Origin: Anaeromyxobacter paludicola
GTDB lineage: Bacteria > Myxococcota > Myxococcia > Myxococcales > Anaeromyxobacteraceae
Reading direction: 5' to 3'
Assembly: GCF_023169965.1 (NCBI RefSeq)
Contig: NZ_AP025592.1
Coordinates: forward strand, 1,922,001-1,986,000
Length of the DNA: 64,000 nucleotides
A model generated the notes under the pieces. The model was not told the origin of the DNA. It searched no databases and saw only the letters and a list, made by a program, of their open reading frames with translations. Below, piece after piece: positions 1,918-49,046 of the stretch (positions are counted from its first letter, which is position 1; each line of letters begins with the position of its first letter). A program made the translations under genes and the position numbers.

Positions 1918-1923
1918 CGGGCT

Positions 1924-2856: not shown

Positions 2857-2890
2857 CCACGATAGCCATCTCTCGGGCTACCGTCAACCT

Positions 2891-21978: not shown

Positions 21979-23865
21979 TCACCGCACCGCAGCCGGCGCG
22001 TTCACGTATACGACGAACGACGTGCCGGCGGCGACCTCGTTGTCCACCGCGCGCAGGCCGACGCGCTGGCCCTCCCCCACCGCCACGCCGCTGAAGGTGA
22101 GCTCCCGGTCGCCCGCCGTGATCCGATCACACGTCAGCGGGACGCGGCCATCTCTCGGCAGCCGCGCAGTGCATGCGAGCGTACTCCCCTTCGGCACCGC
22201 CGGCATACCTTCAGCGACCACCTCTTCCGCCACCTCCGCGGAGGCCTGGCCGGGGTGCGTGGCGTCGAGCGAAGAGACGAGCCGCGCCGGTACCAGCGTG
22301 CCTCGCGGCAGGGTCGCTCTAGCGCTCCCGACGCTGGGCCGGTCGGCGAACTCCGCCGGGCGAGACCGCTGCGGCGTGCGCTCAGGCGGAGGAGGCTCGC
22401 GCTCTTGCGTGGCGCTTCGGCCGCCGGCTTTCGCGGTGCGCTTCGGTCGGACGACCGGCTCGACCAAAGCGTCGACTTTGGCCTCCAAAGCAGGAGGCTG
22501 CGCCAACGGCGGCGGCACAGGACCCTTCAGTATGTCCACTGGCGTTCTCGTCTGGACCGGCTCCGAAGACGGCGCCGGCATCGCGGCCAGCGTGCTGCGT
22601 CGCCGGGCCTCGACAAACCTCGCCGCCCCCCAGAGCGTGGCTGCCAGGGTGCCTGCGGCAAGGGCCGCTGTCGCCCAGCGCCGTGCCGAAATTTGCCTTC
22701 CTGCAGAACGGGTCGGGGGCGACCTCGCCGCGACCTCGTTCTCGGCGACTGCGCCTCGCGCTGTCCACCCCTCGCTCCCGTCTCCCGAGGAACCTCGCGG
22801 CGCGGGTCGCCCGGGGGCATCGAGGAGCCCGAACTCGCGCAGCTCCGCCGCGCAGTCGCTCGGCCAGTACGCCTTCCCCAGCGACGCGAGGTAGTCCCGC
22901 AACGCCCGCGAAAACTCGGTTCCGTCCTGGAACCGCTCGCCGCGCTCCTTCGCGAGCGCCCTGGCGCAGATCGCCGCGAGCCCGCTGGGGAGATCCTCCG
23001 TCGCCGCCGCCACGTCCGTGGGATCGCACTCGGCGATCTTCTGCAGCGTGCCGACCTCGCTGCCTGTGTCGAAGACGCGGTTCCCGGTGAGGAGCTCGAC
23101 GAGCACGATTCCCAAGCTGAAGAGGTCGGAGCGCCCGTCGAGCACCTCCTCCGAGGCTTGCTCGGGGCTGAAGTAAGAGTACGTCCCTCGCTGCTGCCCG
23201 GTCCGCGTCCGATCGCGCCCCTCGAGCCGAGCGTAGGCAACCCCGAAGTCGAGCAGCTTTACCGCCCCGCTGCGCGCGATCATCACGTTCGAAGCCTTGA
23301 CGTCGCGGTGGACGATCCCGAGCGCGTGCCCGTCGTCACCGGTGAGCGCGTGGGCGTGGTGCAGCGCCTCGGCGACGCTCGCCGCCACGTGGCAGCAGAG
23401 CGCCTCGCTGAGCCTCCGGCCGGCGCTGCGCGCGGCCTCCGAGGCCGCCTTCGCGGTCACGCCATCGACGTACTCGAGGACGAGGTAGTACCGCCCATCC
23501 AGCACGGCGAGGTCGTGCGCTTCAGCGATGTTCGGATGGCGCAGTCGGGCCGCGAGCCGGGCCTCGTACACGAACGCCCGCCGGGTCCGCTCGTCCAGGT
23601 CGAGGCCCGCGAGCATGCACTTCAGCGCGACGTCGCGGGTGAAGCCCGCCGGCCCAAGGCGGCGGGCGAGGAACACCTCGGCCATTCCGCCCCGCCCGAG
23701 AGAGCGCACGACCTCGTAACGCGCTCCTTCGCCACCGAGGACGAGGTTCTCGCCCGCCCGGAGCGGGCTCGCCCAGCCGAATGGCGCTTCGGGCTGGGTT
23801 AGATCGGCATCCCCCAGATCGAAGCGCGACGTCGGCGCTGCCGTGTTCTCGCCCCTCGTCGCCAT
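21979..23865 (-). CDS. Transmembrane Ser/Thr protein kinase with VirB10-like outer domain
   Basis: A 628-residue protein. The kinase domain spans about residues 50-300: Gly loop SLGRGGMAEVF (56-66), Lys82 in VALKCML, HRDVKASN (186-193) and DFG (206-208), all catalytic residues present. A Pro-rich linker leads to one membrane span near residues 398-418 (ATAALAAGTLAATLWGAA). The outer domain includes LPRGTLVPARLVSSLDA and VPKGSTLACTARLP, which read like the start of a TrbI/VirB10-type barrel; this is a resemblance only. The start at 23865 follows the upstream stop by 4 bp, so the pair is coupled. It is probably a sensor kinase of the element or its host surface. Confidence 0.88.
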   Translation of the reverse strand: MATRGENTAAPTSRFDLGDADLTQPEAPFGWASPLRAGENLVLGGEGARYEVVRSLGRGGMAEVFLARRLGPAGFTRDVALKCMLAGLDLDERTRRAFVYEARLAARLRHPNIAEAHDLAVLDGRYYLVLEYVDGVTAKAASEAARSAGRRLSEALCCHVAASVAEALHHAHALTGDDGHALGIVHRDVKASNVMIARSGAVKLLDFGVAYARLEGRDRTRTGQQRGTYSYFSPEQASEEVLDGRSDLFSLGIVLVELLTGNRVFDTGSEVGTLQKIAECDPTDVAAATEDLPSGLAAICARALAKERGERFQDGTEFSRALRDYLASLGKAYWPSDCAAELREFGLLDAPGRPAPRGSSGDGSEGWTARGAVAENEVAARSPPTRSAGRQISARRWATAALAAGTLAATLWGAARFVEARRRSTLAAMPAPSSEPVQTRTPVDILKGPVPPPLAQPPALEAKVDALVEPVVRPKRTAKAGGRSATQEREPPPPERTPQRSRPAEFADRPSVGSARATLPRGTLVPARLVSSLDATHPGQASAEVAEEVVAEGMPAVPKGSTLACTARLPRDGRVPLTCDRITAGDRELTFSGVAVGEGQRVGLRAVDNEVAAGTSFVVYVNAPAAVR

Positions 23866-23869
23866 CCGG

Positions 23870-24784
23870 TCAGAAGTCGAGGCCGCCGAGGGTGACGGCG
23901 CGCCGCTTCCCGGCCCCCTCGTAGACGGTGAGCTCGAAGGGTCCGCCGCCGCTGTCACCCTCGGGGAGGCGCAGCGAGACCACGCCGCTGCTCACCCTCT
24001 GGAACTCGATCGTCCTCTCCGACAGGTACTCGCGCTTGTTCGCGCCCTTGTTCACCACCACCGAGCCGACCTCGATCGGGATGCGACCGCGGTTCTCGAG
24101 CGTGAAGGTCAGGATCACCTCCCGGCCGAAGTAGCAGAGCTCGGTCACCTCGAGCACCATGTCATCGTTCCGCGCGCGCGAGCCCTTCTTCGAGCAGTGG
24201 TGCGGCTCGCTGAAGGCGCGGAGGAACCGGCCGCTCACCTCTGCGTCGATGCGCGCGGCGCTCTCTGCCTCGAGCTTCGCCTTCTCCACCCGGACGTACT
24301 CGCTCTCGCCGGCCCGGTTCGGGTAGACGAGCACCACCCGCGTGTCCGCCGCCTTCCGCTCGACGCGTTCCAGGTAGAGCATGAGCGTCGTGTGCTCGAG
24401 CCGGACGAGCACGGTGGTAACCGCCTCCTGCCCCGACTTCGACTGCCGCACCGCCTCGCCGTTGGGGGTGATGGCGAGGAACCTGCCCTGGGCCACGGTC
24501 TCGACCCGGAAGAGCGCGTCGCTGTCGGGGTTCCGCAGGTCGGTGCAGTCGCCGCACGTGGGCGCGCCGAGCATGTCCTCCGGAAACTCGACCGTGGTGA
24601 GGAGGTTGCGACTGGTCCGGATCGCGATCGCCTTCCCGGCCGACTTCTCGTCCAGGACGACCTCCCGGACTCCCTGCACCGGCGCGGGTGCGGCCGAGGC
24701 CGCATCCTTCACTCCACCGGGCGGGGCGGCCGCCAGGAGCGCGAGGGAGACCGTCGTCATCGCGAGCGTCGAAGCGGTAAGCAT
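23870..24784 (-). CDS. DUF2381-like secreted protein paired with the kinase
   Basis: A 304-residue protein with ATG at 24784 behind GGGAGGGG. It has a signal peptide (MLTASTLAMTTVSLALLAAA) and a β-rich body with KAIAIRTSRNLLTTVEFPED, a TCGDCTD pair and EVILTFTLENRGRIPIEVG. The arrangement (secreted β protein, then Ser/Thr kinase) matches the DUF2381/TIGR02268 pairs known from Myxococcales. It could act as the outside partner of the kinase. The family call is from memory of the pattern. Confidence 0.7.
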   Translation of the reverse strand: MLTASTLAMTTVSLALLAAAPPGGVKDAASAAPAPVQGVREVVLDEKSAGKAIAIRTSRNLLTTVEFPEDMLGAPTCGDCTDLRNPDSDALFRVETVAQGRFLAITPNGEAVRQSKSGQEAVTTVLVRLEHTTLMLYLERVERKAADTRVVLVYPNRAGESEYVRVEKAKLEAESAARIDAEVSGRFLRAFSEPHHCSKKGSRARNDDMVLEVTELCYFGREVILTFTLENRGRIPIEVGSVVVNKGANKREYLSERTIEFQRVSSGVVSLRLPEGDSGGGPFELTVYEGAGKRRAVTLGGLDF

Positions 24785-24842: not shown

Positions 24843-25178
24843 TTTCCCGCCGGGGGTCCAGCGGGATCTGCGCGGAGCGCCCCAACTGGTCACCGGAGGA
24901 GGAGGCCCAGGGGCCGACCTGCCCTCTATGCGCGTGGGCCTCCCAGAGGCGCCGAACTCTCGCCGTTCACCCTCTGTCCTGCAGGGCCCGTCGACCCGCT
25001 CCCGCTCCCCGAGTGGCCGCGCTCCGAGCCAGCCGAAAGCCTGCGCGTCCTCCGCGCCCGCCCGCGCCACCTCGCAAGCAGCCTCGGTGGCACGGCTCCT
25101 CCGGAGGGCTCCGCCGCGGCGCCGAGAAGCCTCGGACGCGCGATCGGCCGGCTCTCCGCGCTCATGGTCGCTGCTTCA
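24843..25178. other. Intergenic, no gene seen
   Basis: About 340 bp of GC-rich DNA between the divergent kinase operon and the 63-residue gene. Open frames exist on both strands but none has a ribosome binding site or recognisable protein character. It must contain the promoter for the plus-strand unit starting at 25238. Confidence 0.4.
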
Positions 25179-25205
25179 GCCGCCCCAGCCTGGGGTGAGG
25201 GCGGC
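25179..25205 (+). promoter_or_regulatory. Leader hairpin 1
   Basis: GCCGCCC (25179-25185) pairs with GGGCGGC (25199-25205), and the loop holds a smaller CCCCA/TGGGG stem. It ends about 20 bp before a CAGGGAG ribosome-binding box and the ATG at 25238. It has no U-tract. It belongs to a series of structurally similar leaders in 25-33 kb. Confidence 0.5.
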
Positions 25206-25237
25206 ATGAAGCCGCGCCCACCACAGGGAGCCGGAAG

Positions 25238-25429
25238 ATGGCCAACACGACCTACACGGTGAAGAAGGCGAAGAAGCAGGGCGAGAAGACGTTCTACCAG
25301 GAGGTGGGGAAGCTCCTCATCCGCGAGGGCGCCAAGAACGGCGTCCTCTTCCTCCACTTCCTCGACGGCGAGTACGCCGTCTTCGTCCAGGAGCCGCGCG
25401 AGCAGGGCGGCGACGGCGCCGCCAAGTAG
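25238..25429 (+). CDS. Small conserved-looking unknown protein (63 aa)
   Basis: Starts behind CACAGGGAG. The body KTFYQEVGKLLIREGAKNG then LFLHFLDGEYAVFVQEPRE is a compact β protein resembling the small 'single fold, one-tryptophan-lacking' proteins common in phages and plasmids, where the function is unknown. The N-terminus is Lys-rich. It is a free-standing gene ahead of the toxin-antitoxin pair. Confidence 0.65.
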   Translation: MANTTYTVKKAKKQGEKTFYQEVGKLLIREGAKNGVLFLHFLDGEYAVFVQEPREQGGDGAAK

Positions 25430-25528
25430 TCAGACCGGGCGGCGGGGGCCGCAGCGCCCCCGCCGGTCTGGCTTGAGCACAGCCCCGGATGAGGCCCGCG
25501 CGGGACGCGCGGCCGCCAGGGCTTCTGC

Positions 25529-25557
25529 TTGCAAGTGAAAGACTGTCCACATATTGT
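25529..25557 (+). promoter_or_regulatory. Promoter of the Xre-RES toxin-antitoxin pair
   Basis: -35 TTGCAA (25529-25534) and -10 TATTGT (25552-25557) have an exact 17-bp spacer, in an AT-richer island 31 bp before the antitoxin ATG. The antitoxin would be expected to repress it, as in other Res-Xre pairs; no clear inverted operator was identified. Confidence 0.55.
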
Positions 25558-25588
25558 TTCTTCTGAACGACGAGCAACAGAGGGCATC

Positions 25589-25963
25589 ATGCGAGCGCAC
25601 GCACCTGCGAACACCCCCGAGCCGAGCGCCGTCCTCACGAAGGCGACGCTTCGCGCGGCCTCTTCGCTCGACGTCTCGAACGCAGAGCTCGCCAAGATCA
25701 TCGGCGTCAGCGCAGCGTCCGTTTCGAGGCTCCGTTCGTCTGCGCGCACCATCGCCCCCGGGACGAAGGAAGGCGAGCTCGCGCTCACGTTCCTTCGCCT
25801 GTACCGGAGCCTCGCCGCTCTCCTTGCGGACCCGGCGAAGTGCCGGAGCTGGTTCCACTCCCAGAACCATCACCTCGGCGGCGTGCCGGCGGAGCTCGTC
25901 CGACGCGTAGAGGGCCTCGTCGATGCCACCCAGTATCTGGACGCGATGCGGGGGAAGGTCTAG
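25589..25963 (+). CDS. Antitoxin, Xre/MbcA/ParS family
   Basis: A 124-residue antitoxin with ATG at 25589 behind AGAGGG. The N-terminal helix-turn-helix is at about residues 18-58 (AASSLDVSNAELAKIIGVS then SVSRLRSS). The C-terminal MbcA/ParS/Xre toxin-binding domain has ELALTFLRLYRSLAALL, WFHSQNHHLGGVPAELVRR and GLVDATQYLDAMRGKV. The downstream RES toxin starts inside its last 14 codons. It binds and neutralises the toxin and represses the operon (family knowledge). Confidence 0.92.
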   Translation: MRAHAPANTPEPSAVLTKATLRAASSLDVSNAELAKIIGVSAASVSRLRSSARTIAPGTKEGELALTFLRLYRSLAALLADPAKCRSWFHSQNHHLGGVPAELVRRVEGLVDATQYLDAMRGKV

Positions 25964-26690
25964 CGCCCGCGAACTGCGATGCGCTCCCTGGCGCGTCGTG
26001 GAGGGGCAGCGGATCATTTCGACGCGATCCCTCGTCGACTCTGACGCCGAACACGACCTCCTCGAGGAGATGATCGACGCGAGCAAGCCGGCCCTGCCGC
26101 CGGAGCCCGCGTTCGCCGGTCTCCACTACCTCCTCTACACGCCATTCCGTTACCCACCCCTGCGCCACGGTTCCCGGTTCGGCCGCAGGCACGAGCGCGC
26201 GCTCTGGTACGGCGCGGAGGAGCTCGCCACCGCCCTCGCGGAGGTGGCCTACTACCGGCTCCTCTTCTTCGAGGGCACGGCGGCGCAACTCGCGCCGGAC
26301 ACGATCACCGTTTCCGCTTTCCAGGCGCGGATCAGAACCAGCGCGGGGGTCGACCTCACCGACCCGGTGTTCAAGCCGTACCTCGCCAGCCTCTGCTCGA
26401 AGACGAGCTACGCCCAGAGCCAGGCGCTCGGCTCCGAGATGAGGGCGGACGGGATCGAGGTGGTGCGCTACCCCTCTGCGCGCCATCCGGGGCAGGGCCT
26501 CAACCTCGCCCTGTTCACCCCGGCTTTCGCGGCGAAGACGCCCGTCGGTGCGCCGCAGACTTGGTACTGCACGGTGACGCCCACGCGCGACGTGGAGTTC
26601 CGGTACGAGGCCGTCGCGGGCGTCCAGAAGGTCGACTTTCCACGCAAGAGATTCCTGGTGAGGGGCGCGCTGCCCGCTCCAGCACTCTAG
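25923..26690 (+). CDS. RES-domain toxin
   Basis: A 255-residue RES toxin; members of this family degrade NAD+. The Arg-Glu-Ser type residues lie in PFRYPPLRHGSRFGRR, ERALWYGAEELATALAEVAYYR and KTSYAQSQALGSEM. The ATG at 25923 has AGAGGG 8 bp upstream and overlaps the antitoxin by 41 bp; similarity to the family begins only around APWRVVEGQRIISTR, so a later start (up to GTG 25998) is possible. It probably acts as an addiction module that stabilises the element. Confidence 0.9.
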   Translation: MPPSIWTRCGGRSSARELRCAPWRVVEGQRIISTRSLVDSDAEHDLLEEMIDASKPALPPEPAFAGLHYLLYTPFRYPPLRHGSRFGRRHERALWYGAEELATALAEVAYYRLLFFEGTAAQLAPDTITVSAFQARIRTSAGVDLTDPVFKPYLASLCSKTSYAQSQALGSEMRADGIEVVRYPSARHPGQGLNLALFTPAFAAKTPVGAPQTWYCTVTPTRDVEFRYEAVAGVQKVDFPRKRFLVRGALPAPAL

Positions 26691-36828: not shown

Positions 36829-36846
36829 GGCATGCTTCACCATGCC
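36829..36846. promoter_or_regulatory. CATG palindrome, site 3 (mobC-traD-relaxase operon)
   Basis: GGCATG-CTTCAC-CATGCC, perfect 6-6-6 palindrome, 55 bp upstream of mobC. It is likely an operator for the DNA-processing operon. Confidence 0.6.
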
Positions 36847-37245: not shown

Positions 37246-38775
37246 ATGCATCCCGACGATCGCGCTAAGGCGGGCGCCCTTCTCGTGGCGGGAGTGCCGC
37301 TCGCGAGCTGGCTCTGGGTCGCGAGAGCGACCGGCGCGCTCGACCACCGCGGGCACGCCGCCCTGCTCCACCTCGCGCGGCTGACCGCGACGGGCGCTCG
37401 GCCTCTCCTCCTCACCGCCTTCGCCGCCGGCCTCGTCGCAGCGGTGGGGGCCCTTGTCCTCGCCCGCAAGCTGGCCGCGGCAGGTTTCGGTGGCGCCGCC
37501 TTCCGGGTCCACCTCCGCGGGACGAAGGTGGTGAGCCCGAAGCGCCTCGCCTGGTCCACCCGCGAGCGAGGCCAGCGGCAGATCACGGTCGCCGGAGTTC
37601 CCATGCCGACGTGGGTCGAGACCCTGCACCTCCTCGTCGGAGGTTCCACCGGCTCCGGCAAGTCGGTGCTCATCCGGGAGATGGCCTACTCCGCCCTCCT
37701 CCGCGGCGATCGCATCGTGGTTGCCGACCCGAACGGCGACATGCTCGCGAAGTTCTACCGGCCAGGCGATGTCATCTTGAACCCCTACGACTCGCGCGGC
37801 CTCGGCTGGACCTTCTTCAACGAGATACGGGCCGAGTACGACTTCAAGCGCTTCGCCCTGTCGCTCGTCCCGCGGGGGCAGACAAAGGAAGAGGAGGAGT
37901 GGTGCGCCTACGCGCGGCTCCTCCTCCGCGAGACCGCCCGAAAGCTCACTCTCGTAGGCCAGCCCTCCGTCGCGGAGCTCTTCCGCTGGACCACCATCGC
38001 CAAGCCGGCCGACCTCCAGGCCTTCCTCTCCCAGACCGCGGCCGAGTCGCTCTTCGTCGGCGCCGACAAGGCCCTCGCGAGCGCCCGGTTCGTTCTTTCG
38101 GCGAAGCTCCCCGAACACCTCTCCATGCCCGCAGGCGATTTCTCGCTGCGGTCCTGGCTCGCCGATCCGGCCGCCGGCAACCTCTTCATCACCTGGCGCG
38201 AGGACATGGCCGAGGCCCTCAAGCCCCTCATCTCGGCCTGGGTGGACGTCCTCTGTACCTCCATCCTCTCCCTCGGCGAAGACAAGGACCGGCGCATCTG
38301 GATGTTCCTCGACGAGCTCGCGAGTCTGGAGAAGCTCCCGAGCCTCGAGGACGCCGCCACCAAGGGGCGCAAGGCTGGGCTGCGGATCGTGGCCGGCCTC
38401 CAGTCCACCGCCCAGCTCGAGCGCATCTACGGGCGCGAGGAGGCGCAGACCCTGCGGAGCTGCTTTCGGTCCCTGGTCGTCCTGGGCGGAGCCAAGACCG
38501 ATCCCCGGACCTGCGAGGACATGAGCCAGAGCCTGGGCGAGCACGAGGTCGAGCGCGAGACCTACAGCCGGACGACGGGCCTAAGAGGCGACTCGACGAG
38601 CAGCCAGATCCAGCGCGCGCGAGAGCGCGTCGTCCTTCCCTCCGAGATCGCGAGCCTCCCCGATGTGACCGGCTATCTGGCGTTCGCCGGGGACCATCCC
38701 ATCGCGAAGGTGAAGCTCGACGTGGTCCACTTCCGGAACCGCGTCCCTGCCTTCGAGGAGCGGCTCGCATGCTGA
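37246..38775 (+). CDS. traD: VirD4/TraD-type coupling protein
   Basis: A 509-residue T4SS coupling ATPase. Two membrane spans (about 9-30 and 54-76), Walker A LVGGSTGSGKSVLIREMA (about 129-146), VVADPNGDMLAKFYRPGDV, Walker B RRIWMFLDELASLEKLP (about 347-363) and LQSTAQLERIYGREEA. It links the relaxase-DNA complex to the VirB channel. Its TGA overlaps the relaxase ATG (ATGCTGA). Confidence 0.95.
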   Translation: MHPDDRAKAGALLVAGVPLASWLWVARATGALDHRGHAALLHLARLTATGARPLLLTAFAAGLVAAVGALVLARKLAAAGFGGAAFRVHLRGTKVVSPKRLAWSTRERGQRQITVAGVPMPTWVETLHLLVGGSTGSGKSVLIREMAYSALLRGDRIVVADPNGDMLAKFYRPGDVILNPYDSRGLGWTFFNEIRAEYDFKRFALSLVPRGQTKEEEEWCAYARLLLRETARKLTLVGQPSVAELFRWTTIAKPADLQAFLSQTAAESLFVGADKALASARFVLSAKLPEHLSMPAGDFSLRSWLADPAAGNLFITWREDMAEALKPLISAWVDVLCTSILSLGEDKDRRIWMFLDELASLEKLPSLEDAATKGRKAGLRIVAGLQSTAQLERIYGREEAQTLRSCFRSLVVLGGAKTDPRTCEDMSQSLGEHEVERETYSRTTGLRGDSTSSQIQRARERVVLPSEIASLPDVTGYLAFAGDHPIAKVKLDVVHFRNRVPAFEERLAC

Positions 38776-41573
38776 GTCACAAGGTACTGACGCGGCAGGA
38801 CGTGGGCCGCGCCGCAAGCTACTACGAGGACGGCGCGGACGACTACTACGCCGGCGAGGGCGAGGCGTCCGCCTGGCAGGGGAAGGGGGCCGAAGCGCTC
38901 GGGCTCGAGGGGCCCGTCGGCGGCGCCCGGTTCCGGGAGCTCCTCGCCGCGCAGGTCGTCCCGGGCGAGCCCAGCGTGAGGTCCGGCACCCGCTCGGACT
39001 CGAAGGACCGGATCGGCATCGACCTGACCTTTTCGGCCCCGAAGAGCGTGTCGCTGCAGGCCCTGATCGGCGGGGACGAGCGCATCGTCGAGGCGCACGA
39101 CCGGGCGGTCGCGCGGGCCCTCGCGGTCGCCGAGGAGCGCGCCCAGGCCCGCAAGAAGGTGAAGGGCGAGAGCCGGGTCGAGGACACCCGCAACCTCGTC
39201 GTGGCGAAGTTCCGGCACGAGACGAGCCGCGAGCAGGACCCCCAGCTCCACACCCACGCGCTCGTGCTGAACCTCACCCGCCGCTCCGACAGCGCATGGC
39301 GGGCGCTCCGCAACGACGAGATCGTCAAGGCGACGAAGTACCTCGGCGCCGTCTACCGAGCCGAGCTCGCGGCCGAACTCCAGGAACTGGGCTACGCGCT
39401 CCGGCACGGGCGGGAGGGAATGTTCGAGCTCGCCCAGATGGAGCGGGCGCAGCTCGCAGGATTCAGCCGGAGGGCGGAGCAGATCGAGCGGAGGATGGCC
39501 CAGGAAGGGCTCACGCCCGAGCACGCCACGGCCGAGCAGAAGCAGCGCGTGAAGCTCGCGACACGGCCCAGGAAGGTGCCTGTCGCTCGTCAGGCACTCT
39601 TTGCCGAGTGGCAAGCCCGCGCGCGTGACCTCGGGATGGACCTGACCCGGCCGACGCCCCTGGAGTCGGGGGCACGACGGGACACGGGCGCCGGCCCCCG
39701 TGCCCCCGGTGCGGGCGCCCGGAGCTCCGACGAAGCCGCCAAGCGCAGCGTCCGGTTCGCAATCGCCCACCTAACCGAACGCCAGGCCATCGTCGAGGAG
39801 CGGGAGCTGCTCGACGTCTCGCTCAAACACGCGATGGGCCGGGCAACCCTGCCCGACATCCGGCGCGAGGTCGCGCGGCTCTGCTCCACGGGGTACCTCG
39901 TCCCCGAGACCCCCCTGTACCGGCCCGCGGACGGACCGGCGAACGCGCCCGCCCTCGCGAAGGGCGCCTGGATCTTGACGGAGGTCGCGCGGGGCGTGGA
40001 ACGGTCGGAGGCTCGCTCGGCCGTGGAGGCGGCCATCGCGACCGGCCGGCTCATCCCGGTGGAGCGAAGGTTCACCACGCAGACCGCGCTCGCACGCGAG
40101 AAGCGCATCCTCCGGATCGAGCGGGAAGGACGCGGCGCCCTGCAGCCGATCGGGGCGGCGGAGAGCCTGCGCCACCGGCTTGCCTCGAGCGACCTCAATG
40201 CCGGACAGCGCGCCGCAGTGGAACTCATCGCCACGAGCCCGGACCGGGTGGTGGGGGTGCAGGGGTACGCCGGCACCGGGAAGAGCCACATGCTCGAAGA
40301 GGCCCGGAGCATCGCCGAGGAGCGGGGCCACCGCGTGGTCGCAGTCGCCCCCTATGCGGCGCACGTCCGGGCCCTGCGCGAGCTGGGGGTCGAGTCGAAG
40401 ACGCTCGCCTCGTTCCTGGCCGCTCGGGAGAAAGGTCTCGACGAGAAGACCGTCCTTGTCATCGACGAGGCTGGCACCGTGCCGACGCGGCAGATGGAGC
40501 AGGCGCTCAAGCTCGCGGAGAAGGCCGGCGCGCGCGTGGTGCTCCTCGGCGATACGGCGCAGACCAAGGCCATCGAGGCCGGACGCCCGTTCCAGCAACT
40601 CCAGGAGGCCGGCATGCGAACCGCGGTCATGGCCGAGATCGAGCGGCAGAAGGCCCCCGCGCTGCGCGAGGCCGTATCCCTCGCCGCCCGGGGCGAGAGC
40701 GCGTCGTCGCTCGCGCGGCTTTCCGCCGTCCGCGAAGTTCGCGACGACCACGAGCGCCGGCGGGCGATCGCAGCCGACTACGCGCACCTGCCGGAGACGG
40801 AGCGCGCCAAGACCATCGTCGTCGCAGGCACGAACGACGCCCGGCGCGAGATCAACCGCGCCGTCCGCGAGGACCTGGGCCTCGCCGGCCGGGGGCGCGA
40901 GTTCGCCACCCTCGTTCGCCGCGACACCACCCAGGCCGAGCGCGCCTTCGCAAAGAACTACGCAGTCGGCGACATCCTCCAGCCCCAGCGCGACTACCCG
41001 AAGGCGGGGCTCGCGAGGGGAGCCCTGTACGAGGTGATGGAGAACGGCCCCGGAAACCGCCTCACCGTGCGGGGCGAGAAGGGCGAGGTGGTCGAGTTCA
41101 GCCCCATGACCTGCCGACGCCTGTCCGTCTACGAGCCGGAGCGCTCGGAACTCGCCGCCGGTGATCGCGTCCGAGTCACCCGGAACGACGCGGCGCGCGA
41201 CCTCGCCAACGGGGACCGCTTCACCGTCGCCGCCGTGACCCCGGCCGCGGTCACGCTCACCGACGGACAGCGCCATGTCGTGCTCCCTGCAGACCGGCCG
41301 CTCCACCTCGACCACGCCTACGCCACCACCGTCCACGCCAGCCAGGGGACGACCGCCGAGCGCGTCCTCGTCGACGCGACGACGAGAAGTAGGACGACGT
41401 CGCAGGAGGTGTACTACGTCGCGATCAGCAGGGCGCGGCAGGAGGCGCGCGTCTACACCGACGACCTCGCCCGGCTCCCCGCTGCCGTCGCGCGGGAGCA
41501 CGCGAAACACGCGGCGCTAGACTTAAGAGGCCCACGAGCGCATGAAAGGTCCGCGAGGATACGGCGCGACTAA
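38769..41573 (+). CDS. trwC: MobF conjugative relaxase-helicase (TrwC type)
   Basis: A 934-residue protein that nicks oriT and unwinds the transferred strand. The N-terminal relaxase domain has Tyr18/19 and Tyr26/27, Asp85 (IGIDLTFSAPKS) and the His triad His150, His161 and His163 (KFRHETSREQDPQLHTH), the same numbering known for R388 TrwC. The C-terminal SF1 helicase has Walker A GVQGYAGTGKSHMLEEA (about 496-512), Walker B VLVIDEAGTVPTRQM and the final TTVHASQGTTAERVLVD. The length is near the family norm. A diverged stub of a related gene end lies at 47102-47285. Confidence 0.96.
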   Translation: MLSHKVLTRQDVGRAASYYEDGADDYYAGEGEASAWQGKGAEALGLEGPVGGARFRELLAAQVVPGEPSVRSGTRSDSKDRIGIDLTFSAPKSVSLQALIGGDERIVEAHDRAVARALAVAEERAQARKKVKGESRVEDTRNLVVAKFRHETSREQDPQLHTHALVLNLTRRSDSAWRALRNDEIVKATKYLGAVYRAELAAELQELGYALRHGREGMFELAQMERAQLAGFSRRAEQIERRMAQEGLTPEHATAEQKQRVKLATRPRKVPVARQALFAEWQARARDLGMDLTRPTPLESGARRDTGAGPRAPGAGARSSDEAAKRSVRFAIAHLTERQAIVEERELLDVSLKHAMGRATLPDIRREVARLCSTGYLVPETPLYRPADGPANAPALAKGAWILTEVARGVERSEARSAVEAAIATGRLIPVERRFTTQTALAREKRILRIEREGRGALQPIGAAESLRHRLASSDLNAGQRAAVELIATSPDRVVGVQGYAGTGKSHMLEEARSIAEERGHRVVAVAPYAAHVRALRELGVESKTLASFLAAREKGLDEKTVLVIDEAGTVPTRQMEQALKLAEKAGARVVLLGDTAQTKAIEAGRPFQQLQEAGMRTAVMAEIERQKAPALREAVSLAARGESASSLARLSAVREVRDDHERRRAIAADYAHLPETERAKTIVVAGTNDARREINRAVREDLGLAGRGREFATLVRRDTTQAERAFAKNYAVGDILQPQRDYPKAGLARGALYEVMENGPGNRLTVRGEKGEVVEFSPMTCRRLSVYEPERSELAAGDRVRVTRNDAARDLANGDRFTVAAVTPAAVTLTDGQRHVVLPADRPLHLDHAYATTVHASQGTTAERVLVDATTRSRTTSQEVYYVAISRARQEARVYTDDLARLPAAVAREHAKHAALDLRGPRAHERSARIRRD

Positions 41574-41898
41574 GTATCCAGCCGCGGTGATGCTGCCCCC
41601 CTTGGGCCGCACCTCAGAAACAGTAATTGATCTCGACCAAGCCAAGAGCTGAGCGATCCCTTCATCTTGCAGGGGCACGTTTTTTGAACTTCGGGATCGA
41701 GAAGATCACGCTGTCGGCTCGTGAGCGACCGACCTCTCGACCTACACCGGATCACTTGAAGCGGGATGGGCATGCTAACCAATCACGCATGCAGTACAGA
41801 CGCCGTACCCTTCGGCCATGGGCTGATGGCGGCGCCGTTGTCGAGGAGCGTCTGGGATAGAGAAGGATCAACGAACATAGTAGGCTCGGGAGCACCAC
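41574..41898. other. Junction between transfer genes and Hachiman cargo
   Basis: A stretch of 325 bp with lower GC than its left neighbour. It contains the second copy of the 27-bp repeat (41716-41742) and a T-run near 41682. Small frames here have no supporting signals. It should contain the hamA promoter; no clear -35/-10 pair was fixed. Confidence 0.4.
41716..41742. repeat. 27-bp direct repeat, copy 2
   Basis: GCTCGTGAGC, five variable bases, then GACCTCTCGACC; 23 of 27 positions match 4165-4191. It lies about 145 bp after the relaxase stop. Confidence 0.45.
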
Positions 41899-42681
41899 GT
41901 GGGACTCTATAAGAAGTGGTGCGACTGCACGAAAGAGAAGGACAAGCGGAAGCGCTACTGGACGTATGTCGAAAAGGACGGCGGCCGTGACGCAATTCGC
42001 GATGATCTCGCCGAGACGATCCGCTCGCACTACGACCGGCTCGAACGCATCGCCGAGGACGTGGAGCGGCTCGGATACAACGTCGCCGCCAGGATCCTCC
42101 GCGAGGCGATGCCCCAGACGCCCAAAGGCCGCTCCGGCGATCTCGGCGAGATTCTCGCGACCGAGCTGGTCGAGGAAGAAATCGGCCTGCGCGTCCCTGT
42201 GCGCCGCCTTCGCTACAAGGACGGCCGCAACATGGCCATGCGCGGCGACGACTTCATCGGCGCCGGCTACGATGGGGCTGGCGAGAAACTCTGGCTCCTG
42301 AAAGGCGAAGCCAAGAGCAACAAGGTGCTCGGCAAGACCACGGTCACGAGCGCGCGTAAGGTGCTCAACCGCGACAACGGCCGTTGCACGCCCGATTCCC
42401 TGTTGTTCGTCGCCAACCGCCTGCTGGAGAGCAACGACCCGGACGACAACGCGCTGGGCCGCAGCCTCCGTGACGAGGTGGGCCTAAAGTCCCTTCGCGC
42501 CGATCGCATCGACCACATGCTCTTCACCGTGTCGGGCAACGGCCCCCACGCCTCCCTGAAGGAAGATCTCGACGCCGCAGGGGGCAACCGGGACCACTAC
42601 GTCGTGAACATCCACGTCGAAGATCACCAGGACTTCATCGCGGCCATGTACCAGGAGGCTGAAGACCTTGGAGACAATTGA
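41899..42681 (+). CDS. hamA: Hachiman nuclease subunit HamA (DUF1837)
   Basis: A 260-residue nuclease-like protein of the Hachiman anti-phage system. The PD-(D/E)xK pattern is visible: Glu84 in GDLGEILATEL, Asp118 in MRGDDFIGAG and Glu137-x-Lys139 in LLKGEAKSNK, with the DUF1837 layout around it. The GTG start at 41899 has GGGAG upstream; the gene overlaps hamB by 14 bp. HamA is held inactive by HamB and degrades DNA when the helicase senses damage or infection (family knowledge). GC is lower than in the ICE backbone, suggesting a separate origin. Confidence 0.93.
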   Translation: MGLYKKWCDCTKEKDKRKRYWTYVEKDGGRDAIRDDLAETIRSHYDRLERIAEDVERLGYNVAARILREAMPQTPKGRSGDLGEILATELVEEEIGLRVPVRRLRYKDGRNMAMRGDDFIGAGYDGAGEKLWLLKGEAKSNKVLGKTTVTSARKVLNRDNGRCTPDSLLFVANRLLESNDPDDNALGRSLRDEVGLKSLRADRIDHMLFTVSGNGPHASLKEDLDAAGGNRDHYVVNIHVEDHQDFIAAMYQEAEDLGDN

Positions 42682-45600
42682 CGAACTGACCGCGTTCCTG
42701 ACGACCGCGACCGTCGACGGCATCCTTGGGCGCTTGCTCTATCGTGGCGCCGCCTGGTCGCTGATGCGTGAGCAAGGCGTGTTGCCCGCGAATGCACCGC
42801 CCCTCGGCGCGACGATCGAAACCGATCTTGCCGAACACGGCTTCGCCCTGCTTAGGGGAGCGATGGCCCTGCGTGCTCGGGCCGGTGCGTCGGACCTGAC
42901 CAACAAGGCGTTCGAGCGCGCCGCCAACGCCTTCGAAGCTCTGGTGCGCAACGGCGACCCGCAGGCGCCCGAACGGGGCTTCCGCCGCACCATCGCCGCC
43001 GCAGCCTACCATCTGGCCGGCTTTTCGGCCGTCGCCTATTCGCTCTTCAACGAGACGGCGGACGACCTCAATGCCTCGCCGGGCGAAACGGCGGTTCGAC
43101 ACTTGATCCTGCGCGATCTCGGGCAGTTGCGCGGCTTCGTCCGCGAGTGGTTGGATGACGAGGCTCACGGCGATGAGCAGATCGGCTCGGCGCTAAGAAG
43201 CGAAGAGCCCGACGTCGATGCGGTGCTGTCGACTATCCTGAACACAACGATCTGTCGGGCCCTGGCGCATTTTGATTTCGCGCTCGAGACGGGCGCGCCC
43301 GAGCCGCTCGAAAGCGCACGGGCCCTGCTCGGCACCGCGGTCAGCCTGGCGGACAATGCTGAGAATGTTCCGCTATGGTGGATCTCCCATCTCTGTCGGC
43401 ACCTAATCGACGACCTCTGGCAGCACTCGCTGCACCAGAACCTGCCGACCGAGCCGCCTAAGGGGACGGAGGGCATATACCCGGACCTGCGCCGGCTATT
43501 TATCTCCTCGCTCTACGCCCGAAAGACGTCTGAGGTGGAGCTGTGGCCTTCGCAGCGCGAAGCGGCTCAGCGTTCCACGGACGTCACCGACGACCTGGTC
43601 GTCGCCTTGCCGACCAGCGCCGGCAAGACGCGGGTGGCCGAGATCGCCGCGCTGATGACCTTATCGTCGGCGCGCCGGGTGCTGATCGTCACGCCATTGC
43701 GCGCCTTGTCGGCCCAGACGGAGCGCTCTTTCAGAAAGACCTTCGCGCCCCTCGGCTTCAGCGTCTCCTCGCTTTACGGCGCTAGCGGCCTTTCGGCCGG
43801 TGATGAAGACGCCCTTCGCACCCGCGAGATTATCATCGCGACACCCGAGAAACTCGACTTCGCGCTGAGAAGTGACCCGTCACTGATAGACGATGTCGGC
43901 CTGATTGTCCTCGATGAGGGTCACATGATTGGCCCGAGCGAGCGTGAAATCCGCTACGAGACACTGGTACAGCGCCTGCTTCGGCGCGCGGATGCGGCAG
44001 AACGCCGGATCGTGTGTCTCTCCGCCATCCTGCCGAGCGGCGACGAGTTGGATGATCTCACCGCCTGGATCCGCTCCGACGAACCGGGTGAGCCGGTGCG
44101 TTCCGACTGGCGTCCGACACGGCAAAGGTTCGGCGCGCTCACCTGGCGGGGCAAGGACGCATTGCTCCGGCTCGACCTCGACGACGACGGTCCGTTCCTC
44201 GACAAATTCGTCGTGGAGAAGCCGGCGCTCGGGAAAGAGAAGAAGCCATATCCGCGCACGAACTCCCATCTCGCTCTGTTCGCGGCGTGGGAGTTCGGCA
44301 TGCAGGGCAAGCGGACCCTGATCTTTTCCACTCAGGCGAATTGGGTCGAGAGCTACGGCAAACAGGTCGTGGACCTCTGCGAGCGCGGCTATCTGGGTTC
44401 GCTGCTGGAGGATGATGCGTCGATCGCCCGGGCCTTGGAAGTTGGCAAGGAGTGGCTGGGCGAAGACCATCCCGCTGTCGCCTGCCTGAAGCAGGGAGTC
44501 GCCATCCACCACGGCCGGCTGCCGAGCCCGTTTTTGCGTGAGCTGGAAGCCCTTTTGTCCGATGGGGTGCTGAAGGTCATCGTCGCATCGCCGACGCTCT
44601 CGCAGGGCCTGAACCTCAACGCCGCCGTGCTCTTGGTGCCCGCCCTATATCGCGCCTCTGAGAAGATCAAAGGCGAGGAGTTCGCGAATGTTGCGGGCCG
44701 TGCGGGGCGCGCCTTCGTCGATGTCGAGGGACTGATTGTCCACGTCATGTTCGACAAGGTCGACTGGCGAATGAAGGAATGGAGGAACCTGGTCGCCTCC
44801 GCCAAGGCGCGCACGCTGAAAAGCGGCCTCATCCAGATCGTCGCCGAGATCCTTGAGCGCCTGTCGCGCGAGGGTATTCTGGATCGCGATGACGCGTGGG
44901 AATATCTCGCCAATGCTCGCGAAGCCTGGAGATCGCCCGAGGAAGAAGCCGCAGTCGCCGAGCGGCTGGCCGCCGGCGTGGATGACCACGCCGATGGCGA
45001 CGACGATGAAGGCGGCGGCGATGACGAGGAAGAAGCCATCGATGAGGAGCCGCTTTCGCAAATCGTCGAGCGCCTCGATGCGACCGTGTTCGGCCTGATC
45101 GAAGCACTCGATTCGGACCGCGCCGACCTGCCGAAGCTCCTAGACGAAGCGCTTAAGGGATCGCTCTGGGCCCGCCAGATTGCCCGCGAGGACGAGGACG
45201 TCGCCCCGTTGCACAAGAAGGTGTTCGAGGTGCGCGCCGATCTCATTTGGAAGAGCACCACGGCGCAGGCGCGGCGCGGACATTTCGCGATGGGCGTCGG
45301 CCTTGAAGCTGGGCTCGTCATCGACGCCATGGCCGACGAGCTGGCCAAACTCCTCGACCGGGCTGACGAAGCGGCGCTGAGCGGCGATGTAGAGGAACTT
45401 GTCGATGCGCTTGGCGGCCTCGGCGAGCGCCTGCTGTTTATGCGGCCCTTTATCCCCGACAAGGCGAATGCGCTGCCGGCAGACTGGAAAGCTATCCTGC
45501 GTAGCTGGGTATCCGGCGAGGAGGTTTCGAAGATCGGACCGCAGAACATGCGGGCTATCGAAGAGGCTTTCACCTATCGTCTGGTCTGGGCGCTGGAAGC

Positions 45601-46171
45601 TGTCCGCACCCGCCGCATGTCCCTCGGCTGGTCGCCGCAGACGGTGGCGGGCGGCGCCGCAGCGGCGGTCGAGACCGGCGTCCCGCAATTCATGATGTCG
45701 ATGCTGATCCGCGCGGGCCTTCCGTCACGGCGGGCGGCGATGGCGGCGATCGAGGATGCGAAGCCTGTCTTCGTCACGCCCGCCGAGATGCGGGCTTGGC
45801 TACTATCCGACGAGATCACGGCCTACACCGACGCCGGCGACTGGCCCACACCCAATACCGCCGCCCTATGGGCTCGCTTCCGCACCGAAGCCCTCAGCGG
45901 CGGCATCCAGAAGTGGTCGGTCGAACGCTATAAGCGCCTGCTCGACATCGCGGGCGCCCCGCCTGCCGGCCTCTATCGGATCGTCACCGACGAGGGGGAC
46001 GGGCGGACCTGGCTGGCGACGCCCGACTACCAGCGGGTCGCCGCGTTCAAGAAGCCGGCTGTCGATCCTAAGCCCAGCCTCTTCTCGGGTAGGTTGCTCG
46101 GCAACACCCGGCTGGTGGAGGCGTTGCGTGTCGGCCGCGGGAAACTGCGCTGGCCGCAGGCCGATGCGTAA
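42668..46171 (+). CDS. hamB: Hachiman helicase HamB
   Basis: A 1,167-residue SF2 helicase. It starts with TTG at 42668 behind AGGAGG. Walker A is VALPTSAGKTRVAEIA (about 312-327), the DEGH box VLDEGHMIGPSE (about 413-424), motif V/VI ASPTLSQGLNLNAAVLLVP and NVAGRAGRAFVDVEG (about 675). An acidic tract lies at about 775-795 (DDHADGDDDEGGGDDEEE), and a long helical C-terminal domain follows. Composition matches hamA. It overlaps hamA by 14 bp. Confidence 0.95.
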   Translation: METIDELTAFLTTATVDGILGRLLYRGAAWSLMREQGVLPANAPPLGATIETDLAEHGFALLRGAMALRARAGASDLTNKAFERAANAFEALVRNGDPQAPERGFRRTIAAAAYHLAGFSAVAYSLFNETADDLNASPGETAVRHLILRDLGQLRGFVREWLDDEAHGDEQIGSALRSEEPDVDAVLSTILNTTICRALAHFDFALETGAPEPLESARALLGTAVSLADNAENVPLWWISHLCRHLIDDLWQHSLHQNLPTEPPKGTEGIYPDLRRLFISSLYARKTSEVELWPSQREAAQRSTDVTDDLVVALPTSAGKTRVAEIAALMTLSSARRVLIVTPLRALSAQTERSFRKTFAPLGFSVSSLYGASGLSAGDEDALRTREIIIATPEKLDFALRSDPSLIDDVGLIVLDEGHMIGPSEREIRYETLVQRLLRRADAAERRIVCLSAILPSGDELDDLTAWIRSDEPGEPVRSDWRPTRQRFGALTWRGKDALLRLDLDDDGPFLDKFVVEKPALGKEKKPYPRTNSHLALFAAWEFGMQGKRTLIFSTQANWVESYGKQVVDLCERGYLGSLLEDDASIARALEVGKEWLGEDHPAVACLKQGVAIHHGRLPSPFLRELEALLSDGVLKVIVASPTLSQGLNLNAAVLLVPALYRASEKIKGEEFANVAGRAGRAFVDVEGLIVHVMFDKVDWRMKEWRNLVASAKARTLKSGLIQIVAEILERLSREGILDRDDAWEYLANAREAWRSPEEEAAVAERLAAGVDDHADGDDDEGGGDDEEEAIDEEPLSQIVERLDATVFGLIEALDSDRADLPKLLDEALKGSLWARQIAREDEDVAPLHKKVFEVRADLIWKSTTAQARRGHFAMGVGLEAGLVIDAMADELAKLLDRADEAALSGDVEELVDALGGLGERLLFMRPFIPDKANALPADWKAILRSWVSGEEVSKIGPQNMRAIEEAFTYRLVWALEAVRTRRMSLGWSPQTVAGGAAAAVETGVPQFMMSMLIRAGLPSRRAAMAAIEDAKPVFVTPAEMRAWLLSDEITAYTDAGDWPTPNTAALWARFRTEALSGGIQKWSVERYKRLLDIAGAPPAGLYRIVTDEGDGRTWLATPDYQRVAAFKKPAVDPKPSLFSGRLLGNTRLVEALRVGRGKLRWPQADA

Positions 46172-46391
46172 GGGTAAGCGGTAGCCACGCTCTATTCCTG
46201 GTCGGCGACCAGAAGCGCGCGCCCATTGCAAAAGGGAGAGCGCACGACTTGGCGCGACTGCGGCGGCTTGCTCACCGCCGTCATGCCGGTCGAGAACACG
46301 CCCCACAGGCGGCACAAGGCCGGCAATCGAAAGCGGGCTGGTGGAATTGCCGAATCCGCTGGCAGCTACTCTGCTCGACTATGTCCGCAGG

Positions 46392-46988
46392 TCATTTCTG
46401 AACGATGGAAAGGGGCGTCGCATACGGGAACAGCGGGTCCACAACCTGCTTGCCCGATAGCCATACGATGTTGTTGCTCGTCGAATACCAACCGGAGATG
46501 CATTGGGACCCCTCATAATGGGAGTGCCCCACCATCTGCTGAACACCGACACCGCTGGTCGCCATGTAGAGCGCGTTGCCAACAGGGTAGCACTGCATCG
46601 ACCATGCTGACGAGGCAGCCGAGAGAAATACGAGGTATGGCGTGCCCGAGCAGTCGGCGGATCCGTACTGCACAACCACTCCGCCTTGCGTGTATGCAAG
46701 AGGGTCGGTAACAGTACCGCTACCAGCCAGAGTCACGAAACACCCAGCGCGCAGTGAGTACAGGATCGGGCTGCCGTAAGAGTAGCTGAGTGTCCCGAGC
46801 TCCCTCTGCTGCGCATCGACGACGCACGCCGACCCCGCTGGACAAGTGCTGTCAGTTGAAGGACTTTGGGTGACGCCAGCGTCCGGCGGGAGGCTATTAC
46901 CTGGTGCCGTCGCGGACCCGCCGCAGGCCGCAACCGTCGCACCCAGCACCAGCACCAGCACCAGCACGCCTCCCCGCCGAATATTCAT
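46392..46988 (-). CDS. Small lipoprotein, unknown
   Basis: A 198-residue lipoprotein with ATG at 46988 behind GGGGGAA. The signal peptide MNIRRGGVLVLVLVLG has a tandem Leu-Val stretch (CACCAG repeats in the DNA) and the lipobox is VAACGGS. The body has six or more Cys and β-rich segments (LGTLSYSYGSPILYSLRAG, GGVVVQYGSADCSGTPYL). It looks like a myxobacterial surface lipoprotein. It is convergent with hamB, separated by about 220 bp with no supported gene. Confidence 0.75.
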   Translation of the reverse strand: MNIRRGGVLVLVLVLGATVAACGGSATAPGNSLPPDAGVTQSPSTDSTCPAGSACVVDAQQRELGTLSYSYGSPILYSLRAGCFVTLAGSGTVTDPLAYTQGGVVVQYGSADCSGTPYLVFLSAASSAWSMQCYPVGNALYMATSGVGVQQMVGHSHYEGSQCISGWYSTSNNIVWLSGKQVVDPLFPYATPLSIVQK

Positions 46989-47101
46989 TGTGGGCGTTCC
47001 CCCGTAATTAGAAGTCGCATTAGACCACAAGAACGGGCTGATTGCCTTGATCATCGTCGGTATCCGTCCGGACACGGCCGTGTTGACCCCCGGCCGGAGG
47101 G

Positions 47102-47285
47102 GGAGCGCGCCAAGACCGACGAGAAGCAGGACGACGTCGCAGGAGGTCTATTACGTGGCGATCAGCGGGGGACGGAGGAGGCGCGAATCTACACGGAAGA
47201 CCTCGCGCGTCTCCCAGCAGCGGTGACGCGGGGGCTCGAGAAGCAGGCGGCGCTCGACCTGGACCGCTCGGGCCAGAGCAGATAG
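47102..47285 (+). pseudogene. Remnant of a relaxase 3' end
   Basis: From about 47102 the DNA aligns with the relaxase 3' end at about 41360-41530. GACGACGTCGCAGGAGGT is shared, and the protein VYYVAIS then RIYTEDLARLPAAV matches VYYVAIS and RVYTDDLARLPAAV. A one-base loss after the GCGATCAGC segment shifts the frame, so the piece cannot be translated as a relaxase end. The divergence is too large for a recent duplication; it is better explained as the tail of a second, related relaxase gene. Confidence 0.75.
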
Positions 47286-47332
47286 GCCCTCAGATGTGGC
47301 GTCCTACTCCCGAGACCTTGACGCGGAAGGCA

Positions 47333-47350
47333 GGCATGGCTCACCATGCC
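47333..47350. promoter_or_regulatory. CATG palindrome, site 4 (xis-int unit)
   Basis: GGCATG-GCTCAC-CATGCC, perfect 6-6-6 palindrome, 100 bp before the 26-codon leader ORF and 177 bp before the excisionase-like start. It shares TCACCATGCC with site 3. Confidence 0.6.
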
Positions 47351-47450: not shown

Positions 47451-47531
47451 ATGTCCGGCGCTGACCCTCTTCCCCTGACCCCAGCCATCCACTGCCCCGA
47501 GGCCTCGTGGCACGCGAGGGCTCTTTCTTGA
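47451..47531 (+). CDS. 26-codon leader ORF before xis
   Basis: ATG at 47451 behind a strong AAGGAGAGG box. It encodes MSGADPLPLTPAIHC and then a short tail, ending at TGA 47529-47531. The stop overlaps a TTG (TTGA) in frame with the excisionase-like protein, the usual pattern of translational coupling. The peptide itself resembles nothing known; it may be regulatory. Confidence 0.45.
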   Translation: MSGADPLPLTPAIHCPEASWHARALS

Positions 47532-47758
47532 GCGCCCGGTCCTCCGAAGCAGCAGCCAGGGCCCTCGCCCCGCCCGCTCCGACTCTCCTCACCGTGGACG
47601 AGGTCGCGGTCCTCCTCCGTACCACGCGCAAGGCCGTCTACACGCTCGCCGAGCGCGCCCAACTTCCCGGGGTGGTCCGCCTGGGGCGGCGGCTCCTGTT
47701 CCGTCGGGAGACCCTGGTAGAGTGGCTGTCGGAGAAGAGTGGAGCGCCTTCGCCGTAA
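47528..47758 (+). CDS. xis: Excisionase-like helix-turn-helix protein
   Basis: A small MerR/AlpA-type DNA-binding protein: LLTVDEVAVLLRTTRKAVYT then GVVRLGRRLLFRRETLVEWL, the classic winged-helix excisionase pattern. The start is TTG 47528, coupled to the leader ORF; GTG 47507 is an alternative that would add seven residues. It ends 11 bp before int. The expected role is to direct excision of the element and possibly to control int. Confidence 0.82.
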   Translation: MSARSSEAAARALAPPAPTLLTVDEVAVLLRTTRKAVYTLAERAQLPGVVRLGRRLLFRRETLVEWLSEKSGAPSP

Positions 47759-47769: not shown

Positions 47770-48951
47770 ATGAGCGTGAGAGTACGAAGAAGCAGGAACG
47801 GGAAGGGCTGGGAAGTGGACATCCTCGTCCGCACACCAGACGGGAAGAGGATGCGGGAGCGCACCGACGCCCCCGTGTCTTCCAAGACCGCGGCCCGACG
47901 TTGGGCCGAGGCGCGCGAGCACCAGCTCGCGCTGAACGGGCGCCCGCAGCGCCGCGTCGTGCCGACGGTGCTCGAGTTCGGCCCCCGCTACATCACGGAG
48001 TACTGCGAGGCGAACCGGCAGAAGCCGAGCACCATCATCCAGAAGAAGCTGATCATCGACTACTACCTGAAGCACCGGGTGGGATCGAAGAAGCTCGACC
48101 AGGTCACCGACTCGGACGTCCAGAAGCTAAAGGCGGACCTCCGGGACCTGAGCCCGAAGACGACGAACAACGCCCTCGTGTGCCTCAACACGATGCTCAA
48201 GTCCGCCGTCGAGTGGCACGTCATCGACCGGATGCCGTGCACCATCAAGCTGCTCAAGGTGCCCCGAACCCTGGAGCCGAAGTTCTACGAGCCGCACCAG
48301 TACGAGCGGCTCGTCGAGGTGGCGCGTGAGCTCGATCCCCGCATCGAGCTCTTCGTGCTGCTCGGTGGCGACGCTGGCCTGCGCTGCGGCGAGATCATCG
48401 CCCTCGAGCAATCCGACGTGGAGCTCCGACGCGGCTACCTGGTGGTCCGGCGCTCCGAGTGGGAGGGCCACCTGACCGTCCCGAAGAGCGGCCGGGAGCG
48501 GAAGGTCACGCTGACCGCCCGCCTCAAGGTCGCCCTCACAAGGAACCGCCACCTCCGCGGCGACCGGGTCCTCTGGCGCGACGACGGGCACGAGAAGGTG
48601 ACGCAGGTGCTCCTGGCGAAGTGGATGAGCCGCGCCCAGCGGCGCGCCGGCCTCAAGGTCACCGGCGGCATCCACATCCTCCGCCACACCTTCTGCTCGC
48701 GGCTGGCGATGGCCGGCGCGTCCACGAAGGCCATCCAGGAGCTCGCCGGGCACCAGCAGATCAGCACCACCCAGCAGTACATGCACCTCTCACCGGCCGC
48801 GAAGTCCGAGGCCATCGCGCTGCTCGACCGGGGAGAGGACCTGAAGGCGGAGGGCGCCGCCCCGGCCGATCTTGATGCTGGCCGTGGAGCAGGCGTGGAG
48901 CAGACGGGGTTGGAAGGAGGGGCCCAAAAGACAACGCCCCGTGATTCCTAG
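47770..48951 (+). CDS. int: Tyrosine integrase of the element
   Basis: A 393-residue tyrosine recombinase with ATG at 47770 behind AAGGAG. It has an N-terminal arm-binding region, a core-binding SAM-like domain (TIIQKKLIIDYYLKHRVGSK then LSPKTTNNALVCLNTMLKSA) and the catalytic residues Arg (GDAGLRCGEIIAL), Lys (TVPKSGRERKV), HxxR (IHILRHTFCSRL), His (LAGHQQIST) and Tyr (TQQYMHLSP). It ends 21 bp from the 3' end of a tRNA-Pro gene, the usual place for an integrase of this type. Confidence 0.95.
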   Translation: MSVRVRRSRNGKGWEVDILVRTPDGKRMRERTDAPVSSKTAARRWAEAREHQLALNGRPQRRVVPTVLEFGPRYITEYCEANRQKPSTIIQKKLIIDYYLKHRVGSKKLDQVTDSDVQKLKADLRDLSPKTTNNALVCLNTMLKSAVEWHVIDRMPCTIKLLKVPRTLEPKFYEPHQYERLVEVARELDPRIELFVLLGGDAGLRCGEIIALEQSDVELRRGYLVVRRSEWEGHLTVPKSGRERKVTLTARLKVALTRNRHLRGDRVLWRDDGHEKVTQVLLAKWMSRAQRRAGLKVTGGIHILRHTFCSRLAMAGASTKAIQELAGHQQISTTQQYMHLSPAAKSEAIALLDRGEDLKAEGAAPADLDAGRGAGVEQTGLEGGAQKTTPRDS

Positions 48952-48964: not shown

Positions 48965-48972
48965 GAAGTGAG

Positions 48973-49000
48973 TCGGGGAGACAGGATTTGAACCTGCGAC
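48973..49000. other. att: Likely attachment site at the tRNA-Pro 3' end (right junction)
   Basis: The 3' part of the tRNA (T arm and acceptor stem) faces the integrase, as expected when an element integrates into the tRNA 3' end and restores it. The other copy of this sequence was not found in the window, so the core and the left junction are not defined. Inference from position. Confidence 0.45.
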
Positions 49001-49046
49001 CCCTTGGTCCCGAACCAAGTGCTCTACCAGGCTGAGCCACTCCCCG
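48973..49046 (-). tRNA. tRNA-Pro (anticodon CGG)
   Basis: On the minus strand the acceptor stem CGGGGAG pairs with CTCCCCG plus discriminator A. The anticodon loop TTCGGGA lies between CTTGG and CCAAG, giving anticodon CGG. The T loop GGTTCAAATCC is normal. No CCA is encoded. It is next to int and is the integration target. Confidence 0.95.

Follow-up and report, generated by a model that had tools for sequence, protein, structure and literature searches.

A Hachiman cassette between a conjugative relaxase gene and a diverged relaxase remnant in a probably composite element of Anaeromyxobacter paludicola

The window analysed here is a stretch of 64,000 nucleotides (positions 1,922,001 to 1,986,000 of NZ_AP025592.1) from Anaeromyxobacter paludicola, whose genome is a single contig of 4.59 Mb. 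A conjugative element, labelled G000, was found to span about 9.7 to 49 kb of the window; its relatives are labelled G013, G019, G024, G022 and G018. The element combined a TrwC relaxase and a TrwB coupling protein with type IV secretion genes (a VirB11-type ATPase, TrbI/VirB10, CagX/VirB9 and one more T4SS protein), as is expected of an integrative and conjugative element (ICE), and it carried accessory genes for ParB, RadC, MoxR and VWA proteins. The order at its right arm was TrwB, TrwC/MobF relaxase, HamAB, relaxase remnant, xis, int and tRNA-Pro(CGG) (Table 1). Several features outside this arm were also recorded. A kinase-domain protein with a weak, TrbI-like C-terminal match below the Pfam cut-off is encoded inside the element at 21,982-23,958. 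A RES-domain toxin-like gene lies at 24,986-26,690, and the stretch just 5' of it ranked with the most conserved DNA of the related elements (88-91% identity); the two are likely a toxin-antitoxin pair. A collagen-like tandem repeat with 18-nt units occupies 8,596-8,800.

Table 1. Features of the right arm of the element (positions in the window).
Feature	Position	Strand	Evidence or remark
Operator-like palindrome	36,829-36,846		Two mismatches to the xis-int copy; upstream of the gene that precedes trwB; G013 and G019 have it at the orthologous position
TrwB/VirD4-type coupling protein	37,246-38,775	+	Pfam TrwB_AAD_bind 6.9e-98
TrwC/MobF relaxase-helicase gene	38,769-41,573	+	Pfam TrwC 1.1e-82; NCBIfam MobF 2.7e-82
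DNA between relaxase homology end and HamA, including the non-native relaxase C-terminus	41,522-41,896	+	No plasmid match; junction
hamA	41,899-42,681	+	PADLOC HamA 8.8e-114; Pfam HamA
hamB	42,668-46,171	+	PADLOC HamB E=0; 92.5% amino acid identity to S. fredii plasmid protein
Truncated start of the gene after hamB in S. fredii pSF45436d	46,172-46,324	+	Plasmid comparison
Putative lipoprotein ORF	46,392-46,988	-	No family match
Relaxase 3' remnant (stub)	47,090-47,285	+	Equivalent of 40,787-40,814 fused to equivalent of 41,380 to stop; one frameshift; C-terminus LDLDRSGQSR
Conserved promoter/operator-like motif TTGACG...GGCATGGCTCACCATGCC	47,318-47,350	+	Shared with G019 (ahead of its int region) and G024 (ahead of xis)
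xis (HTH_17/excisionase-type)	47,507-47,758	+	Pfam HTH_17 2.6e-12; TIGR01764
Tyrosine integrase, tRNA-Pro(CGG)-targeting group	47,770-48,951	+	Pfam; relatives adjoin tRNA-Pro
tRNA-Pro(CGG), attachment gene	48,972-49,046	-	47-nt 3'-end stretch has a second copy about 40 kb distant in relative G018

An earlier note on this DNA had placed hamA, hamB and a lipoprotein-like ORF between the relaxase stop codon (41,573) and a relaxase remnant, and PADLOC, Pfam and alignment results showed that this cargo is real. A HamA (DUF1837) gene stands beside a HamB helicase gene, which is the arrangement that defines Hachiman, and protection against phages is predicted. Positions 41,897-46,324 shared 87% DNA identity with the Sinorhizobium fredii conjugative plasmid pSF45436d and 80% with Rhizobium and Agrobacterium plasmids. 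The match began just 5' of the hamA start codon and ended inside the third rhizobial gene, and a search of the flanks (41,522-41,896 and 46,325-47,089) returned no rhizobial-plasmid match. Since only this one segment is common to the rhizobial plasmids, the cargo is composite and only its HamAB part is clearly foreign. Judged by sequence, the HamAB genes common to an S. fredii plasmid and a myxobacterium are a case of long-distance transfer between phyla. HamAB is thus documented at this level of DNA identity between Rhizobiaceae plasmids and a chromosomal element of a myxobacterium.

The relaxase gene upstream of the cargo, which the earlier note had called intact, indeed encodes complete domains, but its native last codons have been lost. 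Homology to the relaxase genes of both relatives compared (G013 and G019) stopped at 41,521, and the codons that follow (RGPRAHERSARIRRD) are non-native and replace a DRSxxx-type end. The native C-terminus LDLDRS... was found in the G013 and G019 relaxases and was kept in the G000 stub. The crossover in G000 lies inside the last relaxase codons, with the residues LDL kept. The best-ranked plasmid matches of this relaxase reached about 56%.

The stub was described in the earlier note as diverged and frameshifted from 47,102 onward. Divergence (82%) and frameshift (one base absent near 47,177) were both confirmed, and the start was moved to 47,090. Positions 47,117-47,258 aligned with relaxase positions 41,380-41,522 at 82%, with 26 differences in 145 positions and one gap, and positions 47,090-47,117 matched 40,787-40,814 at 25 of 28 bases. 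The two pieces thus leave 565 nt missing inside the stub, which before this loss must have extended 780 nt or more into the relaxase gene. A chance origin was rejected, as the local alignment score was 91 against at most 23 both in 200 shuffles and in the rest of the window tested. The differences from the upstream relaxase fell on codon positions 1, 2 and 3 in the proportion 4/4/18 (18/26 at third positions; binomial p=0.0002), indicating that the stub diverged mostly as a working gene and represents another allele, not a decayed recent copy. A recent duplicate was rejected on this ground, in agreement with the earlier reading that no simple recent duplication is involved. The stub was at a similar distance from its own relaxase and from the other alleles: identities were 82.1% to the G000 relaxase, 81.4% to the G013 relaxase, 79.3% to the G019 relaxase and 82.1% to the G013 stub. 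Bootstrap values for its placement in the relaxase tree were 45-71, and the allele could not be placed because the shared stretch is short (145 nt). An origin from another relaxase allele means that two related elements contributed, as had been proposed. The deletion and frameshift suggest that erosion is under way; most likely, the stub has no function and is still eroding.

Between the stub and xis lies the palindrome GGCATGGCTCACCATGCC. G019 has it at the corresponding position ahead of its int region, and G024 has a copy with a single change ahead of xis. At up to three mismatches, 0.08 copies were expected by chance in the window and 3 were found. On the trwB side, upstream of the preceding gene, copies with one or two mismatches stand at orthologous positions in G000, G013 and G019. 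The shared form GGCAYGGCTCACCATGCC (one or two mismatches allowed; 36,829-36,846 and 47,333-47,350 in the window) was thus observed at the trwB side and at xis-int in several related elements. It is predicted to be an operator and probably links the control of transfer with that of excision. The operator ties the xis-int end beside the stub to this ICE family. The integrase, by contrast, is one of a group that other elements, which lack relaxase tails, carry at tRNA-Pro(CGG). The stub was absent from the read flanks of all integrase relatives examined, and we rejected the idea that it is a regular part of the integrase module. A left attachment site of the element was looked for over 54 kb upstream of the window and not found. 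About 26 kb of DNA there (positions 1-4,000 of the window and some 22 kb upstream of it) had a G+C content of 60-63%, against about 68-75% around it, and this stretch may be a further insertion that has deleted or conceals the left site.

To place these observations, we compared three elements with a complete relaxase (G000, G013 and G019, the last from Anaeromyxobacter sp. PSR-1), with four genomes in all. The TrwC domain was found in 3 of 145 genomes of the order and in 4 of 195 in a sample of the phylum. The core shared by the three elements was mostly 74-92% identical at the DNA level, and its homology ended at the relaxase end, at 41,521 for G000 and 7-8 nt past the stop codon between G013 and G019. 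Right behind the relaxase, all three Anaeromyxobacteraceae elements carried different cargo. In the G013 element (1,228,929-1,306,266, with 47-nt att repeats at tRNA-Pro(GGG)), three ORFs came first, among them those for a QatC-like protein (9e-55) and an HTH-ImmA/IrrE protein. A 413-nt relaxase tail with a frameshift followed, and beyond it lay genes for an LmuB-like SMC protein (8e-34) and a SIR2_2 protein, downstream of which lies an integrase of another type. The layout of relaxase, cargo and stub thus recurs in G013, whose stub is a mosaic, with a 5' part like the G019 allele and a 3' part like that of G000 (0/2000 permutations as extreme). In G019, the relaxase is followed by a 1551-aa protein without family match, the operator, int (a predicted tyrosine recombinase) and tRNA-Gly; there is no stub. 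The same interval therefore held Hachiman, QatC-like plus Lamassu/SIR2-like genes, or an unclassified protein, as is usual for a defence hotspot, and the variability attributed to the relaxase-int interval in the earlier note was borne out by different defence or defence-like genes in each of the three, too small a number for statistics.

The fourth genome, G024, belongs to the same genus as the window's host and is an 80%-complete draft. Its contig C281 starts 104 nt before a stub of about 377 nt, a relaxase tail whose frame is open, and the operator, xis, int and tRNA-Met follow. Nothing else in the draft matched the 12.9-kb conjugation region convincingly, and neither a TrwC domain nor a relaxase was found elsewhere in it. 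The tail before operator-xis-int supports an ancestral order of relaxase, operator, xis and int. A relaxase directly before xis-int had been expected in elements with an empty site. The order in G024 agrees with this and is also implied by the shared operator, but the relaxase end there is truncated, lies near the contig edge and belongs to a genome without a relaxase; no intact cargo-free element was found among the relatives. The same truncation means that stubs can be plain decay remnants. At C3:200144-212000 of G022, 79% identity to 28.7-33.7 kb of the window (RadC, DUF6744, MoxR and VWA genes) and a related int fragment were found, with neither a TrwC relaxase nor a relaxase tail; this locus is a decayed relative of the element family. 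The flanks compared of more distant MobF loci (Bordetella, Verticiella, Phenylobacterium and MAG DX1.bin89) held no second tail, searches of genome contigs by integrase peptide patterns confirmed no further relatives, and no related viral contigs were found. Because tails were searched for, part of the clustering of stub ends by the relaxase 3' end reflects ascertainment, and we drew no statistics from it.

Taken together, we consider it fairly probable that the right arm is a composite of two related ICEs and that the relaxase-int interval is a slot in which defence genes gather. The conjugation backbone and its relaxase would derive from a first ICE, while a second would have supplied the int side: operator, xis, int and tRNA-Pro junction, together with the relaxase 3' end that is today's stub. 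The presumed ancestor would have had its relaxase directly before operator-xis-int, and the slot between them would be occupied in G000 by a HamAB cassette of the rhizobial plasmid type. By one route, homologous recombination in the relaxase would have been one-sided, its second joint being illegitimate; this would bring new cargo in behind the relaxase and displace the old tail and int downstream. By the other route, which fits about equally well, two ICEs would have integrated in tandem before a deletion; both routes are inferred. The G000 interval from relaxase to stub contained no att core or remnant, which is mild evidence against tandem integration, but a deletion could have removed the site. 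On the cargo side of the stubs, the joints lie between unrelated sequences, as would be expected of one joint in homology-facilitated illegitimate recombination; the other would have to lie within homologous sequence, a crossover for which there were no parental elements to compare. At least one joint is illegitimate, so the recombination invoked in the earlier note was worded too unspecifically. Its claim that cargo entry left the stub behind holds as to the two alleles, but the G024 stub has no known cargo and cargo entry need not have made the stub. Similar leftovers in related elements make the spot look like a recurrent docking place for defence genes. A further-reaching idea, that the MobF relaxase 3' end is a reusable recombination anchor and that each defence insertion leaves an orphan tail that dates and orders the acquisitions, so that past defence uptake could be read in sequence from the tails, is speculative and rather unlikely.

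G024 illustrates that a tail and xis-int can persist when the remainder is absent, so the decay of an older resident has to be taken seriously as a rival, although we consider it clearly the less probable account. The stub, operator, xis, int and tRNA would then be the relic of an older ICE that decayed at tRNA-Pro; a second ICE with Hachiman cargo would have integrated beside it and lost its own int, and the cargo would have nothing to do with the origin of the stub. G024 has just such a relic, which comes close to a stub without cargo in a relative, the case that would count against the earlier note, and the G000 stub is already eroding. However, cargo or relaxase may be missing from the incomplete G024 assembly, and the G013 stub sits between two cargo blocks, not beside int. 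Much less probable is site-specific insertion, in which a mobile cassette enters at the relaxase 3' end, supplies a new copy of that end and pushes the old one away, as tyrosine-recombinase elements do at gene 3' ends. The end of core homology at, or shortly before, the relaxase stop in all three pairwise comparisons and the G000 crossover in the last codons would fit such insertion, but no recombinase gene was recognised between relaxase and stub in the cargo of G000 or G013, the displaced pieces are of unequal length (150 to about 800 nt) and not a short core, and the left cargo ends have no common sequence. Copying of the relaxase 3' end within one element at cargo insertion, followed by drift, would account for the direct-repeat arrangement around the cargo and is very improbable in view of the third-position bias, the equal distance to all alleles and the native C-terminus of the stub.

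If the tails mark successive insertions, they would provide a sequence record of how and in what order conjugative elements gain defence genes, an order that is usually not visible. We found no papers in the searchable open-access literature on relaxase pseudogenes or truncated relaxases in ICEs, or on orphan tails that mark a defence slot, and such tails as markers of a defence hotspot may perhaps be new. Tandem accretion of ICEs brings two related elements together at a single attachment site, where deletions then produce composites; G000, as a probable two-element composite, would resemble these and differs in that no internal att site was found. It shares the TrwB-TrwC order and domain content with R388/IncN-type MobF (TrwC) modules, but is chromosomal, with a tyrosine integrase and a tRNA attachment site. 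In the type VI secretion orphan immunity arrays of V. cholerae, a conserved upstream gene anchors new modules and a process like homology-facilitated illegitimate recombination has been proposed (PMC5361080); measurements in E. coli conjugation put the frequency of this recombination very low (PMC3240628). In those arrays, old 3' ends and old cargo are likewise pushed downstream and kept as remnants, but a secretion or effector gene serves as anchor and effector-immunity pairs form the cargo, whereas G000 has a conjugative relaxase as anchor and phage-defence genes as cargo. Defence hotspots in ICEs and genomic islands are already known, for example in Pseudomonas (PMC12629846), and they too are variable intervals between conserved element genes with different defence systems per element. 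They were defined statistically over thousands of genomes, in a main text without relaxases, whereas the slot described here is seen in three complete elements and is marked by relaxase stubs.
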